The position numbers and the translations under genes were made by a program. Shown here one piece after another: positions 12,733 through 43,824 of a stretch of 64,000 nt of DNA. The stretch covers positions 2,326,881 through 2,390,880 of the forward strand of contig NZ_KI911784.1 in assembly GCF_000516515.1 (NCBI RefSeq), read 5' to 3'. The stretch comes from Chloroflexus sp. Y-396-1. GTDB taxonomy: Bacteria; Chloroflexota; Chloroflexia; Chloroflexales; Chloroflexaceae. The notes beneath the pieces were generated by a model. The model did no database searches and was not told the origin of the DNA. It was given only the letters and a program-made list of their open reading frames with translations. Each line of letters starts with the position of its first letter. Position 1 is the stretch's first letter.

Positions 12733-12881
12733 CTCAAAAGAGGAATACCGTGTTTAGCCCGACGACTCGCAACCCCGGCCATAGCTGCTCTCACTTTCCC
12801 GTCGTATCAGCTTATTGGAATTTGGCGGCAACCGCAACAACCGTTTGCCGGCTAACCCTTCCACGGTTTTTTCAAATTATT

Positions 12882-12970
12882 GGTAATAATAGCCATTTTT
12901 AATATTGACTTTTTCTATACATCATGGTAATATTTTACAAGGACTGGTAAATATTACCATCTCGTTGGTA
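12882..12970 (+). promoter_or_regulatory. phased GGTAA operator repeats
   Basis: GGTAA-type motifs begin at 12882, 12926, 12946 and 12967, which gives spacings of 44, 20 and 21 bases, close to whole turns of B-DNA. The copy at 12946-12958 (GGTAAATATTACC) is near-palindromic, and that at 12926 overlaps the -10 box. The array suggests cooperative binding of a regulator on one face of the DNA. The regulator is unknown; the DUF2089 protein encoded just downstream is a candidate. Confidence 0.5.
12905..12933 (+). promoter_or_regulatory. promoter of the DUF2089/DUF4097 cluster
   Basis: TTGACT (12905-12910) and TAATAT (12928-12933) stand 17 bases apart, about 50 bases before the first gene. The -10 box is embedded in one of the GGTAA repeats, so repressor binding would mask it. 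Confidence 0.6.
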
Positions 12971-12984
12971 AAAAGGAGGGAGAC

Positions 12985-13194
12985 ATGCTGCGAGAATTGT
13001 ACCACCACGAGAAGCTTCATGCTCGTGAGCTAAACGAGCGCTATACGCAGCTTGCGCATAGACGTCACCTTCCACCTTCACGCTTGGGGCGTCGCCTTGC
13101 TCATTGGACGGGCTTACTCCTGGTGCGGCTGGGGGCCTGTCTGCTTCGCTACGCCGCTGACCGTCATTCACGTCGCCTAACGCCTGCACGCTAA
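12985..13194 (+). CDS. small basic protein with one membrane helix, 69 residues
   Basis: First gene of the cluster, with a very strong ribosome site (AAGGAGGGAGAC before the ATG). The N-terminal half is charged and His/Arg-rich (YHHEKLHARELNERY). Residues 41-58 (WTGLLLVRLGACLLRY) could form a short membrane helix, followed by an Arg-rich tail. I do not recognise the family. Its place ahead of a DUF2089 regulator suggests a role in the same envelope response, for instance as a membrane-bound sensor peptide, but this is only inference. Confidence 0.7.
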   Translation: MLRELYHHEKLHARELNERYTQLAHRRHLPPSRLGRRLAHWTGLLLVRLGACLLRYAADRHSRRLTPAR

Positions 13195-13205
13195 AGGAGA
13201 TTTCT

Positions 13206-13586
13206 ATGTATCCCTTACTCACCCGCGATCCCATTACCGGTGGCGAATTAATCGTTACCCGTCTCGAATCACCTGACAGCGGAATCGTGATTGAAGGACG
13301 CTTTAGCCTCGGCTGGATCGGTCGGCTTACCCCCGAACAACTAACCTTCGTCGAGCTACTTGTCAAGAATCGCGGCAATATTCAACGGCTCGCTGCCGAA
13401 CTCGACATCGCCTACAACACTGCCCGTGCTCGTCTCGATGAGATTGTCGCGCTCTTGGGTGGTACTCCCGAACAGGAACCACGGCTTGATCGACGCCAGA
13501 TTCTTGACCGCCTGGCCGCCCGTGAAATCTCGGTTGAGGAAGCCCTGCGTCTGCTAAAGGGAGCAGAACATGAACAGCGTAAATGA
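13206..13586 (+). CDS. DUF2089 family protein, putative DNA-binding regulator
   Basis: The 126-residue protein matches the DUF2089 pattern: TGGELIVTRLESPDSG near the start, an IEGRFSLG turn, then LTFVELLVKNRGNIQRLAAEL and DIAYNTARARLDEIVALLG (residues 70-88), a helix-turn-helix-like segment. Usual members open with a Cys-x-x-Cys zinc ribbon; here all those Cys positions are replaced (YPLLTRDPITGG). The last 31 residues (from RRQILDRL, residue 96) form a short helical hairpin also present in the next two proteins. Ribosome site AAAGGAGA precedes the ATG. The gene overlaps the next by 17 bases. A regulatory role is inferred. Confidence 0.8.
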   Translation: MYPLLTRDPITGGELIVTRLESPDSGIVIEGRFSLGWIGRLTPEQLTFVELLVKNRGNIQRLAAELDIAYNTARARLDEIVALLGGTPEQEPRLDRRQILDRLAAREISVEEALRLLKGAEHEQRK

Positions 13587-13935
13587 AGAACGCCATCGCA
13601 TTTTACAGATGGTTGAGCAGGGACACCTTTCGGCTGCTGAAGCTGCTCGCCTGCTCGACGCCCTCAGCGCTGATCCGCGACCACTCGAACGGTTGCAGGC
13701 ACGACTGGTTCGGATTCGCGTCACCGACTTGTCATCACAACGGCTGAAAGCATCAGTCGCTATTCCGGTGAGCCTAATCAATGTTGGACTGCGTCTTGGT
13801 GCACGTCTGGCACCCCAATTGCAAGGTAGTGCCCTCGAAGATCTGATCCGTAGCGTTGAACGTGGAACAACAGGCCTATTGCTCGAATGGCAAGACTTGG
13901 AAGAGGGCGAACGGATCGAAATTATTGTCGAATGA
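13570..13935 (+). CDS. SHOCT-like domain protein, 121 residues
   Basis: The N-terminus (residues 8-32, HRILQMVEQGHLSAAEAARL) is the short helical hairpin found in SHOCT/YvlB-LiaX-type proteins and shared with its neighbours. The remainder (ARLVRIRVTDLSSQRLKASV, then IPVSLINVGLRLGARLAPQL) has a beta-strand pair and a hydrophobic helix, and ends acidic (EEGERIEIIVE). This resembles the small DUF proteins that accompany DUF4097 proteins in Firmicutes Lia-like loci. A ribosome site AAGGGAG lies inside the upstream gene and the two frames overlap by 17 bases, so translation is coupled. Confidence 0.75.
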   Translation: MNSVNEERHRILQMVEQGHLSAAEAARLLDALSADPRPLERLQARLVRIRVTDLSSQRLKASVAIPVSLINVGLRLGARLAPQLQGSALEDLIRSVERGTTGLLLEWQDLEEGERIEIIVE

Positions 13936-13973
13936 ACGCTATGCCTGCACTTCAGATCATTAAGGAGTCTTGT

Positions 13974-15707
13974 ATGAAACAGCAAATTCCCGTCGATGTA
14001 CCGGTCACCCTCATCATTCAGGCTGTTCATGGTGATCTAACGATTCGTGGTTGGTCTGAGCCACTGCTCGAATGGCAATGTGAAGATGATCGGGTAACCG
14101 TACACACTCAGGACACCGGTCTGGTTTTGAGTCCATGCCAGAGTGATCTCACGCTCAAATTACCGCAGAGCGCCGAAGTTCACATTGCAACGATCCATGG
14201 CGACGCACATGTGACACATCTGCGGCGCGTGAGTATTGACCATATCAGTGGTGATCTCACGTTACGCCAGATTACCGAACAGGCAACCATCGGTGTTGTC
14301 AATGGTGATCTGACAGCTTCCGCCGTCGCTGAACTGACTGTCACGAGCGATGTTCAAAGTGATGTAACGCTAACCGACGTGCCGGTTGTCCGTCTGACAG
14401 GTGTGAACGGTGATCTGACCGGTCGTGGTGTTCTGAGTCTGTCGCTCGATCAGGTTGCCGGTGATCTCGATCTGACCGGTCTGCGTGAACAAGTGCAGAT
14501 CAGGAGTGTGAACGGTGACGTTGATCTAGAGACTTCCGGTTTCGCCAGTGCATCCCTTGAGCAGGTGAACGGTGATCTGACAATTCGTGGGCAAGCTGGT
14601 CATGTACAGTGCCTGGTGGTAAGTGGCGATATTGATACGACGGAAGCCCAGATCGATCAGCTCGCTGTTGAGACGGTCGCTGGCGATGTTGAGATAGGGA
14701 GCCTAGCTACCGGTCGTATAGCAACGATCGGGGGTGATCTGAAGATCAGGAACATCACGAGGGAGTTGACAATCGGTACGGTTGGCGGTGATTGTACGAT
14801 TGAACAGTCTACCGGTTCCGTTACGCTTAACACCATCGGTGGCGATCTCTGGTTGCGGGCCGCGTTCACAGCTAACACCTCCCTGCAAGCCCATGTCGCT
14901 GGCGATGCAACCATTGTTCTTCCCGAATCGCCAGATGTTACAGTGATGGCCGTTGTCGGTGGTGAAATTAGCGGTATCGAAGGGCAACCATCGTTGTCTG
15001 GCCAAACGGTTGAAATACGCTATGGGAATGGTACGGCTAGCATCCATCTGCACGTTGGAGGCGATCTGATGATAAAAGGCGCCGACCATCCGGGTTCGTT
15101 CAACAGTATGAGCGCACAATTAGGAAAAGAATTGAGCGAACTAGGCCGCGAATTGGGGCGCGAACTGAGCGAATTGGGGCGATCATTAGCAGCCGAACTC
15201 CGTAGTGCGTTATCCGGGCACGATCCTCATGCCCCTGAACGAGCCCGTGCTGTGGCCGAACGCTTCTCTGAACAGGCACAGCGCTGGCGCGATACTTCTG
15301 GTTCTGAACAAGTAAGGGTGCGGATTAATCAGCGTGAATGGCGACTCGATCCCGAACGAATTGAGCGTATCAAAGAGCAGGCCCGTCAGGCAGCGGCTGC
15401 CGGTCTGAGTAGCGCTCTCGAAGCAGTCGAACGGGCACTGAGCCGGATTCAGTCGCCCCAATCACCAGCAGCTCCGCAGCCGCCCCAATCGCCAGCAGCT
15501 CCACAACCACCTCAACCGCCGGCGCGACCGCCATCACCGGCGACCGGCCCAACTATTCAGCTTCGCAATCCGGTCTCTCAAACACCGCTCAACGATGCTG
15601 AACGTGAACAGCAGCGCGCTTCAATCTTGCAAATGGTCGCCGAAGGGCGTATCTCACCAGTAGAAGGCGACCTGCTGCTAGCTGCCCTCGATGACACCGA
15701 TAGGTGA
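13974..15707 (+). CDS. DUF4097 beta-strand repeat protein with C-terminal SHOCT-like hairpin
   Basis: The ATG at 13974 is chosen because AAGGAG lies six bases before it; the product has 577 residues. Residues 1 to about 370 consist of 14 or so repeats built on (V/G)GD-x-x-I/L-R, for example HGDLTIRG, VNGDLTASA, AGDLDLTG, GGDLKIRN and GGDLWLRA, the hallmark of DUF4097 right-handed beta folds. Around 380-410 is a heptad-like ELSELGRELGRELSELG helix. A Pro/Gln-rich linker (about 490-525) follows. The end (from residue 548, RASILQMVAEGRIS) is the same hairpin found in the two preceding proteins. No signal peptide is seen, so it is probably cytosolic, perhaps a scaffold of an envelope-stress response. 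Confidence 0.85.
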   Translation: MKQQIPVDVPVTLIIQAVHGDLTIRGWSEPLLEWQCEDDRVTVHTQDTGLVLSPCQSDLTLKLPQSAEVHIATIHGDAHVTHLRRVSIDHISGDLTLRQITEQATIGVVNGDLTASAVAELTVTSDVQSDVTLTDVPVVRLTGVNGDLTGRGVLSLSLDQVAGDLDLTGLREQVQIRSVNGDVDLETSGFASASLEQVNGDLTIRGQAGHVQCLVVSGDIDTTEAQIDQLAVETVAGDVEIGSLATGRIATIGGDLKIRNITRELTIGTVGGDCTIEQSTGSVTLNTIGGDLWLRAAFTANTSLQAHVAGDATIVLPESPDVTVMAVVGGEISGIEGQPSLSGQTVEIRYGNGTASIHLHVGGDLMIKGADHPGSFNSMSAQLGKELSELGRELGRELSELGRSLAAELRSALSGHDPHAPERARAVAERFSEQAQRWRDTSGSEQVRVRINQREWRLDPERIERIKEQARQAAAAGLSSALEAVERALSRIQSPQSPAAPQPPQSPAAPQPPQPPARPPSPATGPTIQLRNPVSQTPLNDAEREQQRASILQMVAEGRISPVEGDLLLAALDDTDR

Positions 15708-41013: not shown

Positions 41014-43824
41014 ATGAACAACCGCATCTATGTTGCTATTGATGTCGAGACCACCGGTTTACAGAGTGGTCTCGATGAAATCATCGAGGTTGCAGCGGTA
41101 ACCTTTCGTGGCCGTGAGATTCTCGACCGATTCAGCCAACTGGTTCGCCCCCGCCAATCGGTGCCACTCAAGGTTACCCGGCTGACCGGTATTGATCCCA
41201 CGGCTCTGACACAGGCGCCGCGTTTCAACGAGATTGGCGCTGAGCTGGCCCGATTTATCGGCAATCGCCCGATAGTGGGTCACTCGATTGGCTTTGATCT
41301 AACGATGCTACGGGCCCAGGGGATGCATTTCAATCAGCCGGTTTACGATACGTTTGAATTAGCGACGTTGCTCTTACCGCAGCTCGCCAGTTACAAACTC
41401 TCGACGCTGGCTGCCCATCTCGGTATTCCTCACCCCGATGCCCATCGTGCGCTCAATGATGCCGAGGTAACGGCTCAGCTTTTCGCTGCGCTCTGTGAGC
41501 GGATGTTACACCTTGATCTGGCAACGCTGAGCGAGATTGTGCGCCTAACCAGTAAGATTGGGCTGCCACTACGTGATCTGTTTGAAGAGGCGTTGCGGCA
41601 GAAGGCGCGGAATGCTTTTCTTGAACCAATTGCGGCGCCGCACGATGCGACCGATACCGCCGATACCGAGGTACCGCCACTCCGCCCCACCGGCTACACT
41701 CGACTGCTCGATATCGAGGCGATTGGCGCCTTTTTCAGTCCTAATGGGGTGTTTGGGCAGGCCTTCCCTGGCTATGAGCCTCGTCAGCCACAGATCGAGA
41801 TGGCGCAGGCTGTGGCAACGGCGTTTAATCGGAGTGAGCCGTTGATTGTAGAAGCTGGAACCGGCACCGGGAAGAGTATGGCGTATTTGGTTCCAGCGGC
41901 AATGTATGCTGCGCAACGCGGCGAACGGGTTGTGATTTCGACCAATACCATCAATTTGCAAGATCAACTTTACAATAAAGACATTCCCGATCTGCAACGA
42001 ATCTTCGCAACAGCAGGATTGCCGCCGTTTCGTGCGGTTCTCTTGAAAGGGCGCAGTAATTACCTCTGCCTGAAGCGGTATCACGAGCTACGTCGGCTCG
42101 ATACCTTAAACGGCGAAGAGGTACGGGCGCTGTTGAAGATTCAACTCTGGCTACCAACTACCAAGAGCGGTGATCGTACCGAGCTACCACTGATTGACCG
42201 CGAGCAGGCGGTGTGGAATAAGGTGAATGTCTCGGTCGAGACCTGCACCGGCGCCCGTTGTCCGCATTTTCGGGAATGTTACTTCTTCCGTGCGCGTCGT
42301 GCTGCCGAAGCTGCGCATCTGGTGGTCGTCAATCATGCACTGTTGATCGCCGATCTGGCAGCGGCCTCGCAGGTATTGCCTCCTTACGATCATTTGGTGA
42401 TTGACGAAGCCCACAATCTGGAAGATGTCGCAACCGACCAGCTCAGTTTTAATCTCGATCAGGCCGGCCTACTCAAGTTTCTCGATGATCTATTTCAGAC
42501 CGGTGGAGTGCAGATTGTGAGTGGTCTGCTCAGCGAAATACCGGCAGTACTTACCGAAATCGGTGGCGGCGGCGCAGCCGGAGAGCGCATTACCGCCGCT
42601 ATTGAACGGATACGCCCTACACTGATTCGGATGCGAACTGCGGTCTACGAGTGTTTTCATCTGCTCACCCGTTTTGTGCAGATCGATTCCGATCCCAATC
42701 AGCAGTACGATCTGCGACTCCGCTTAACGAATGATGTCAGAAAGCGCCCGGAATGGCAAGAGATTGAGCTGGCCTGGCAAAATCTGAACGACATGCTGGC
42801 ACTGATCGGCAAAGAGCTGGCAACGATCGAAGAGCAACTCCACGACTTGAACGAGGCTAACGGTACGCTCGATGATCTGCTGTTGCGAACGGAAGTCTTG
42901 CGCCGATTTGCTACCGACGTGCGGGTGCGCAGTGGTCATGTCATTTTTGGCGATGAAGAAAGTATCTGCTGGCTGACGTATGATCGGCAGCGTGATACGC
43001 TCACGCTGACGGCAGCGCCGTTGAGTGTAGCCGACATTTTGCAGAGTCAGCTCTTTGCCCAGAAACAGACCAGTGTGCTCGCTTCGGCAACATTGAGCAT
43101 TGCCGGTCGTTTCGATTTTGTGAAGAGTCGGATCGGTCTGGCCGAATGTCAGGAACTGATGCTCGATTCACCGTTTGATTACGCCCAACAAGCTCTTGTC
43201 TACATTCCCAACGACATTCCCGAACCAAACCAGCGCGGCTATCAACAGATGATCGAACGGGCAATTATCGACCTGGCTATCGCTTCGGAAGGTCGGATGC
43301 TGGCGCTCTTTACCGCTTCCAATGCCTTACGGCAGACCTACGCCGCCATTCAAGAGCCGCTTGAAGATCGGGGCATCGGGGTGATGGCACAGGGCATCGA
43401 CGGTTCACGACGGGCGCTAGTTGATCGGTTGAAGGAGTTTCCGCGCTCGGTTTTGCTCGGTACCAACAGCTTTTGGGAAGGAGTGGATGTGGTTGGCGAA
43501 GCGCTCTCGGTGTTGGTGATTACCAAACTTCCGTTTGCCGTACCGACCGATCCGATTGTCGCAGCCCGCAGCGAGTTGTTCGATGATCCGTTCAACGAAT
43601 ACAGCGTGCCGCAGAGCATCTTGCGTTTCAAGCAAGGGTTTGGCCGTCTGATCCGTTCCCGTGAGGATCGGGGAATTGTGGTTGTACTCGACCGGCGATT
43701 GCTGACTAAGAAATATGGGCAACAGTTCCTCGATTCGTTACCGCCAACGCGAGTACGCACCGGGCCGTTGGCTCACTTGCCGGGGCTGGTGGCGCGCTTT
43801 TTGCAGAGGCTGAATGGCGGGTAA
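41014..43824 (+). CDS. dinG: DinG-family ATP-dependent helicase fused to a DEDD exonuclease
   Basis: The 936-residue protein combines a DnaQ-like 3'-5' exonuclease and an XPD/DinG superfamily 2 helicase for DNA repair. The exonuclease covers about 1-170: IDVETTGLQSG (D, E), VGHSIGFDLTML (D) and HPDAHRALNDAEVT (H, D). The helicase has Walker A VEAGTGTGKSMAY, the DEAH box VIDEAHNLED and the late motifs GTNSFWEGVDVVG and GFGRLIRSREDRG. Between motifs I and II the Cys of CTGARCPHFRECYF are likely iron-sulfur ligands, as in DinG/XPD. The Met at 41014 (MNNRIYVAIDVETTG) is chosen from the domain start; its ribosome site is weak. This domain order is common in Firmicutes and Chloroflexota. Confidence 0.93.
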   Translation: MNNRIYVAIDVETTGLQSGLDEIIEVAAVTFRGREILDRFSQLVRPRQSVPLKVTRLTGIDPTALTQAPRFNEIGAELARFIGNRPIVGHSIGFDLTMLRAQGMHFNQPVYDTFELATLLLPQLASYKLSTLAAHLGIPHPDAHRALNDAEVTAQLFAALCERMLHLDLATLSEIVRLTSKIGLPLRDLFEEALRQKARNAFLEPIAAPHDATDTADTEVPPLRPTGYTRLLDIEAIGAFFSPNGVFGQAFPGYEPRQPQIEMAQAVATAFNRSEPLIVEAGTGTGKSMAYLVPAAMYAAQRGERVVISTNTINLQDQLYNKDIPDLQRIFATAGLPPFRAVLLKGRSNYLCLKRYHELRRLDTLNGEEVRALLKIQLWLPTTKSGDRTELPLIDREQAVWNKVNVSVETCTGARCPHFRECYFFRARRAAEAAHLVVVNHALLIADLAAASQVLPPYDHLVIDEAHNLEDVATDQLSFNLDQAGLLKFLDDLFQTGGVQIVSGLLSEIPAVLTEIGGGGAAGERITAAIERIRPTLIRMRTAVYECFHLLTRFVQIDSDPNQQYDLRLRLTNDVRKRPEWQEIELAWQNLNDMLALIGKELATIEEQLHDLNEANGTLDDLLLRTEVLRRFATDVRVRSGHVIFGDEESICWLTYDRQRDTLTLTAAPLSVADILQSQLFAQKQTSVLASATLSIAGRFDFVKSRIGLAECQELMLDSPFDYAQQALVYIPNDIPEPNQRGYQQMIERAIIDLAIASEGRMLALFTASNALRQTYAAIQEPLEDRGIGVMAQGIDGSRRALVDRLKEFPRSVLLGTNSFWEGVDVVGEALSVLVITKLPFAVPTDPIVAARSELFDDPFNEYSVPQSILRFKQGFGRLIRSREDRGIVVVLDRRLLTKKYGQQFLDSLPPTRVRTGPLAHLPGLVARFLQRLNGG

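Follow-up and report, generated by a model that had tools for sequence, protein, structure and literature searches.

Organization of the locus

The 64,000-nucleotide stretch of the Chloroflexus sp. Y-396-1 genome (4,890,986 bases) analysed here, referred to below as the window, contains an operon for a small basic protein, a DUF2089 regulator, an adaptor with a SHOCT-like hairpin and a Toastrack (DUF4097) protein. The four open reading frames (ORFs) follow one another head to tail, the start of the adaptor gene lying inside the 3′ end of the regulator gene (Table 1). For the DUF4097 protein, a start at 13974, with AAGGAG ahead of it, appears more likely than the ORF start at 13887. The predicted promoter is accompanied by 15-bp operator-like sites, which in relatives form a phased array (see below). 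Rfam, at the gathering threshold, has no matches within the window.

Table 1. Features of the DUF2089–Toastrack operon and its promoter (window coordinates).
Feature	Position	Strand	Remarks
Operator-like site TGGTAATAATAGCCA	12881–12895	not assigned	14/15 to TGGYRAWWWTYRCCA; 5′ of the −35 hexamer
−35 hexamer TTGACT	12905–12910	+	predicted operon promoter; relatives have the same promoter
Operator-like site TGGTAATATTTTACA	12925–12939	not assigned	13/15; overlaps the −10 hexamer
−10 hexamer TAATAT	12928–12933	+	
Palindromic operator-like site TGGTAAATATTACCA	12945–12959		15/15; sole exact TGGYAAWTATYACCA match in the genome
Additional half-site TGGTAA	12966–12971	not assigned	21 bp past the start of the palindrome
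Small basic protein	12985–13194	+	69 aa; first gene of the operon, kept in relatives
DUF2089 regulator	13206–13586	+	126 aa; Cys-free ribbon, helix-turn-helix, C-terminal hairpin
Regulator SHOCT-like hairpin	13491–13574	+	residues 96–123
Adaptor	13570–13935	+	121 aa; N-terminal hairpin and β-β-α-α-β-β body
Adaptor SHOCT-like hairpin	13585–13671	+	residues 6–34
Toastrack (DUF4097) protein	13974–15707	+	577 aa; Pro-rich linker ahead of C-terminal hairpin
Toastrack SHOCT-like hairpin	15615–15698	+	about residues 548–575

Phased sites at the operon promoter

At the operon promoter of Chloroflexaceae, Ktedonobacteria and some Roseiflexus, 15-bp sites of the form TGGYRAWWWTYRCCA recur approximately 21 bp, or two DNA turns, apart. 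In six genomes of the genus the operon is preceded by a sigma70-type promoter (TTGAC, 17–18 spacing, TAATAT). In the seventh genome a contig stops within this promoter, which is present at the end of a further contig. Of 26 upstream regions given, five had no recognised promoter and two were of uncertain orientation; the other 19 came from the family (18) and the order (one). In these, the dyad sites are found at about −42, −21, −1, +20, +40 and +61 from the start of the −35 hexamer. A site matching at least 13 of 15 positions is present in 18 of the 19 regions, compared with 0.5 expected, a count that is circular because the motif was derived from the same set; the spacing was not built in.

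The periodicity is seen in pairs of sites. In 36 non-redundant upstream regions, including those of Ktedonobacteria, 34 pairs lie at a lag of 21, compared with 0.3 expected, with further peaks at 22 (18 pairs), 61 (18), 62 (15) and 42 (13). The Ktedonobacteria regions were fetched after the motif had been fixed (17 were given, one of them, L133, placed there by similarity and not by title); 16 of them alone give 19 pairs at lag 21, 24 at lags 40–42 and 12 at lag 62, counts that come without a shuffle comparison. Self-matching of 29 promoters without any motif (38 promoters, nine of which were dropped as mis-anchored) gives peaks at 21, 62, 20, 22 and 40, all of them modest (z of 2.7 at 21 and 2.6 at 62, down to 1.7). 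Sites matching at least 12 of 15 positions have a density of 5.55 per kb in 26 operon-upstream regions. Elsewhere in the same loci, 86 intergenic regions hold 0.50 per kb, and the 29 of these that are AT-rich 0.73 per kb.

When an array is defined as three or more phased sites, and 32 loci (239,155 bases) are compared with 20 shuffles, arrays are found in 23 loci, while the shuffles give a mean of 0.35 and a maximum of 3. Shifting the spacings by 3, 5, 8 or 10 leaves arrays in 0, 0, 1 and 2 loci, respectively. All arrays in the 32 loci are positioned 5′ of DUF2089 and no more than about 750 bp from it, save that of L131 (1.78 kb). In this locus (L131:2220-4001), the array and the small-protein ORF that it precedes lie 1.4–1.8 kb before DUF2089, as if the gap had arisen by insertion.

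The array is present in 3 of 5 Roseiflexus-like loci, in none of 4 Herpetosiphon loci, in 1 of 9 loci from Anaerolineae, Bacillota and Trueperaceae (and there not 5′ of DUF2089), and in none of the last ten loci, mostly Actinobacteria. Among loci of the regulator alignment (A3), 21 of the 32 with an AYNTAR recognition helix have an array, compared with 0 of the 21 with other or unmatched helices. Motif-free self-matching of 17 Anaerolineae and other regions has a lag-21 peak (z 3.0), and in three loci, one Anaerolineae-like and two Bacillota (L014, L165 and L166), TTGACATTATCAA is found at the −35 hexamer 5′ of DUF2089; it is perhaps another, putative operator for SYPT-type regulators.

The exact sequence TGGYAAWTATYACCA occurs in the genome of the window only at 12945; with one mismatch allowed there are 7 sites, compared with 3 for the reversed control. 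The seven genomes of the genus together hold eight exact matches, six of which are at the operon promoter (in six of the seven genomes) and two within long ORFs of G230 and G118; the operon promoter of G230 has a 13/15 site instead. With up to one mismatch, these genomes contain 41 sites, compared with 14 for the reversed control. A regulon search for two full adjacent sites gave no match in any of 41 genomes of the family. Triple half-sites match in 24 of the 41, at this operon in three (G000, G198 and G267); the other matches are mostly tandem repeats, with a few single sites, and the reversed control often matches too.

The regulator, adaptor and Toastrack proteins

The regulator matches the Pfam model of the DUF2089 helix-turn-helix (HTH), PF09862, with 62.2 bits (cut-off 33.4), and falls just below the cut-off of the zinc-ribbon model PF22747 (27.2 against 27.6 bits). 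Its zinc-ligand columns read D, T, S and S in place of the four cysteines of a zinc ribbon. In the 54 aligned sequences of A3, these columns read CCCC in 14, DSCS in 24 and other letters in 13, the last including Actinobacteria-like rows without cysteine; DTSS is found in the window regulator and two close relatives. Loss of the ribbon's ligands has therefore occurred in several lineages, with the letters flanking the lost cysteines conserved in the same alignment. In the AF2 (AlphaFold2) model, with a mean predicted local distance difference test score (pLDDT) of 84.3, the regulator consists of a two-stranded ribbon, an HTH and a hairpin, and the modelled HTH may resemble those of NarL/LuxR types and Fis. 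A sequence search gave no solved structure related to DUF2089 at a meaningful E-value.

The adaptor model (pLDDT 84.5) shows a hairpin followed by a β-β-α-α-β-β body; PDB matches covering this body have Z scores of at most 3.9, and no fold is named for it. The 577-residue protein matches the Toastrack model PF13349 with 52.8 bits (cut-off 22.9), and lies far from membership of the LiaX family NF038025 of NCBIfam (29.8 bits, cut-off 350).

A hairpin shared by three neighbouring proteins

The first-pass annotation had described one short helical hairpin in three neighbouring proteins, and this is borne out by Pfam, in which a single model, PF22746 (SHOCT-like_DUF2089-C), matches the C-terminus of the regulator, the N-terminus of the adaptor and the C-terminus of the Toastrack protein. 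When the proteins are scanned individually, the E-values are 3.8e-6, 9.4e-10 and 1.4e-5, respectively, and the scores 26.8, 38.2 and 24.9 bits, the first and last of which fall slightly short of the curated 27-bit cut-off; in the genome scan all three exceed it (27.6, 39.2 and 30.5 bits). Seven matches are found in the whole genome at E≤1, and the three adjacent operon genes alone pass the cut-off, the next-best match having 13.8 bits. Outside the three families, the hairpin was found in 5 ORFs among 4,785 scanned. In the regulator, the hairpin region 13491–13574 also has sub-threshold matches to the small subunit of exonuclease VII (PF02609, E 3.6e-4; TIGR01280, E 8.4e-4).

When the three hairpin families are compared profile to profile, the probabilities are 96.7–98.9%, and at most 5.9% for six column-shuffled controls, although this comparison is partly circular because the profiles were gathered with one joint model. 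Similarity is also found when the regulator alignment A3 is compared with the adaptor alignment A4, which were chosen by their other domains: the hairpin alone aligns (91.7%, E 7.8e-7).

The small basic protein

An iterated profile of the 69-residue protein collects 21 ORFs (the window and 20 of the 62 loci described below) at E≤1.3e-16, the next match having an E-value of 0.53; these values are flattering because the profile's own hits were fed back into it. All 21 ORFs share the strand of DUF2089 and lie 5′ of it, at a distance of over 1 kb in loci L131 and L162. The N-terminal half of the protein is charged, a G..L(I/V).LG..L stretch is present and the net charge is +10. It had been annotated initially as a membrane peptide. 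With a maximum 19-residue Kyte-Doolittle mean of 1.1, a membrane span is unlikely, and this assignment was rejected on hydropathy alone. The regulator, adaptor and Toastrack proteins have corresponding maxima of 0.79, 1.39 and 1.14.

Conservation of the operon

Of 301 genomes sampled from the phylum, 218 match PF22746 at E≤0.05 and 144 match it above its cut-off. In nearer relatives, the regulator, adaptor and Toastrack genes occur together in 18 of 20 fetched stretches, with the small basic protein also present in six members of the genus and one further locus. A scan of named genomes yielded 62 loci, which include Chloroflexus, Oscillochloris, Roseiflexus, Herpetosiphon, Ktedonobacter, Dictyobacter and Thermosporothrix as well as Anaerolineae, Bacillota, Trueperaceae and Actinobacteria; DUF2089 regulators are present in several phyla. 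All three families are found in 42 of these loci, on a single strand in every case, which supports a conserved neighbourhood, the absence of which would have spoken against the first-pass annotation; some of the other 20 loci are truncated at contig ends. The pair of DUF2089 and adaptor is present in 55 of the 62, and in 36 a hairpin is detected in each of the three families. The operon, with its regulator, SHOCT-like and Toastrack genes side by side and the conserved small protein in front, is of the PSP/Lia-like kind (PSP, phage shock protein) described for DUF2089 and Toastrack.

The Toastrack hairpin is C-terminal in the Chloroflexota loci where it is detected, and N-terminal in two Trueperaceae loci and one Bacillota locus; the 36 loci together have 36 proteins with the hairpin at the C-terminus and 2 with it at the N-terminus. 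In locus L133 (L133:4733-6270), a frameshift or an assembly error has perhaps split the Toastrack frame, which is read as one ORF of 127 residues and another of 396. A further Toastrack protein, whose N-terminus has a hydrophobic stretch (G000:C1:3516818-3517396, locus L009), is encoded elsewhere in the genome of the window, which also has one PspA match and three PspC matches. The DUF2089 proteins of Ktedonobacteria (L125–L145) are mostly 74–78% identical to that of the window, and those of Roseiflexus and Herpetosiphon (L150–L159) 62–66% and 51%, respectively, though these belong to the nearer class; the greater identity of the Ktedonobacteria proteins may be a hint of operon transfer.

Proposed regulation and alternative explanations

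We lean towards a reading in which the Chloroflexota DUF2089–Toastrack operon is autoregulated by DUF2089 dimers on the phased array and has a predicted role in envelope stress, the small basic protein, regulator, adaptor and Toastrack scaffold forming a PSP/Lia-like version of such a system. DUF2089 would occupy the array in the form of dimers with a Fis- or LuxR-like HTH, in keeping with the fit of the central nine bases of the site to the Fis consensus (PMC2816674), and neighbouring dimers would touch along a single DNA face. A spacing of two turns puts the sites on the same side of the helix, an arrangement suited to cooperative side-by-side binding. If transcription starts seven bases past the −10 hexamer, the array in relatives has site centres near −70, −49, −28, −8, +12 and +33; coverage from −35 to +33 is suited to repression, and the bound regulator would repress its own operon. 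That DUF2089 is the binder we infer from its position in the operon, its HTH type, the confinement of the array to the promoter and the association with the recognition helix. It is a bolder suggestion that the DUF2089 hairpin provides the contacts between dimers and that the adaptor and Toastrack proteins take part in these contacts or compete with them through exchange of their own copies of the hairpin, so that the state of the scaffold would feed back on transcription. In its strongest form, which we think improbable, DUF2089 would be a filament-forming repressor, its hairpin joining dimers along the array and the adaptor or Toastrack protein breaking or capping the filament by donating a hairpin. 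This would, if true, be a one-component envelope-stress switch operated by hairpin exchange.

Several observations weigh against autoregulation through the array. A three-site array is missing in 9 of the 32 loci. The window itself has an irregular arrangement, with spacings of 44 and 20 between its sites and 21 to the half-site, and fails the three-site rule, while two arrays of weak sites at 42735 and 56543 of the window, which look like chance, pass it. A right-half pair pattern searched in eight Ktedonobacteria genomes missed the known arrays: it gave 0–5 matches per genome (0–2 in the control), and all of these lacked the AT-rich letters of those arrays. The association between helix and array is confounded by the common ancestry of the operons. 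The PDB matches to the regulator HTH all have Z scores below 8 and possibly reflect a mere common arrangement: DosR (Z 7.7, root mean square deviation (rmsd) 2.4, 45 aligned), LiaR (Z 6.3, rmsd 1.9, 50 aligned) and Fis (Z 6.7, rmsd 4.9, 48 aligned) are joined by LuxR types and unrelated entries of similar Z, and an unrelated spliceosome chain ties at Z 6.7. Co-variation of the hairpins within genomes, tried as support for docking, was absent or weak and had to be rejected: identity in the same and in other genomes is 0.340 and 0.335 for DUF2089/adaptor (p 0.18), 0.427 and 0.438 for adaptor/Toastrack (p 0.92), and 0.363 and 0.351 for DUF2089/Toastrack (p 0.008, or 0.044 once dereplicated). A classical SHOCT fusion, moreover, stayed monomeric in the oligomerisation test reported in the part of PMC3581485 used here. 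The homotypic docking and physical complex put forward in the initial annotation are accordingly hypothetical.

The last two results speak for the hairpin being a tag that anchors each protein to the membrane or to a partner, the operon otherwise working as proposed; the three proteins would then meet through the membrane or through a fourth factor, such as the small basic protein. This is a real, if tentative, possibility. SHOCT-like domains are predicted to tether proteins to the inner leaflet in the sections of Ravi et al. 2024 (PMC11237479) relied on here, and a membrane span is unlikely in any of the four proteins (their 19-residue Kyte-Doolittle means peak at 0.79–1.39), so that something must connect them to the envelope. 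A DNA-binding regulator anchored in this way would, however, need a release step, and none is seen here. The phased sites might instead be bound by another, unlinked regulator or by a nucleoid protein, with DUF2089 acting elsewhere, since binding by DUF2089 is a prediction and the site has an AT-rich, Fis-like middle of the kind that nucleoid proteins prefer; its central nine bases fit the Fis consensus GNtYAaWWWtTRaNC, as quoted from PMC2816674. We consider this unlikely, as the array is restricted to the operon promoter in the 32 loci and is common to two Chloroflexota classes with near-identical DUF2089 proteins, whereas Herpetosiphon, which belongs to the class of Chloroflexus, lacks it and has a regulator with a different recognition helix. 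We regard it as very improbable that the sites are no operator at all and that their spacing reflects AT tracts or DNA bending at a strong promoter. The promoters are AT-rich and the period corresponds to a whole number of DNA turns, but the repeated letters extend to the outer GG and CC, no lag near 10 or 31 is among the top motif-free lags, and AT-rich intergenic DNA elsewhere in the same loci is poor in sites (see above).

Comparison with known systems

Like LiaX/YvlB of the Firmicutes Lia system, the Toastrack protein combines a hairpin and a Toastrack domain in one chain, and there are weak NCBIfam matches to LiaX (E 2.5e-7) and LiaG (E 3.1e-9), both far below cut-off. Its hairpin is C-terminal, in contrast with the N-terminal hairpin of LiaX, as judged by the model match of the adaptor, and the window operon, unlike the Lia system, has no two-component system. 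With Fis and the NarL/LuxR-type domains the regulator may share a predicted HTH fold, and the 15-bp dyad site, with its YR steps and AT centre, is like that of Fis (consensus as given in PMC2816674). The differences are the outer bases (TGG..CCA here), the two-turn phasing of sites at a single promoter, and the additional ribbon and hairpin of the regulator. Short DUF2089 proteins (98 and 89 residues) are also listed beside membrane proteins, by name only, in leaderless bacteriocin clusters, in the passages of PMC10707071 and PMC7332713 cited here.

The closest counterpart is the four-gene Toastrack/DUF2089/SHOCT-like context, an analogue of PSP/Lia, reported by Ravi et al. 2024 (PMC11237479). 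In the available excerpts of that paper, DUF2089 is made up of a ribbon, an HTH and a SHOCT-like part, and the context is placed in diverse lineages, so that the view of the module as little described outside Firmicutes is not supported. Both there and here, a regulator with these three parts stands beside Toastrack, with a predicted membrane-stress output. The window differs in that its ribbon has no cysteines and that, by Pfam, none of its four proteins has a LiaI-LiaF-TM or PspC domain. The phased array and the conserved small basic first protein are features of the operons described here that do not appear in those excerpts; the word 'operator' does not occur in the main text of the paper. 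The module itself is of an already known kind, and the phased array seems to be new; a ribbon free of Cys and a small basic protein kept in relatives likewise count as additions, and all three are absent from the passages of the DUF2089 literature consulted. An operator array with a measurable period makes the predicted stress module directly testable, and provides a handle on the role of SHOCT-like hairpins, which has been a question since the domain was named.

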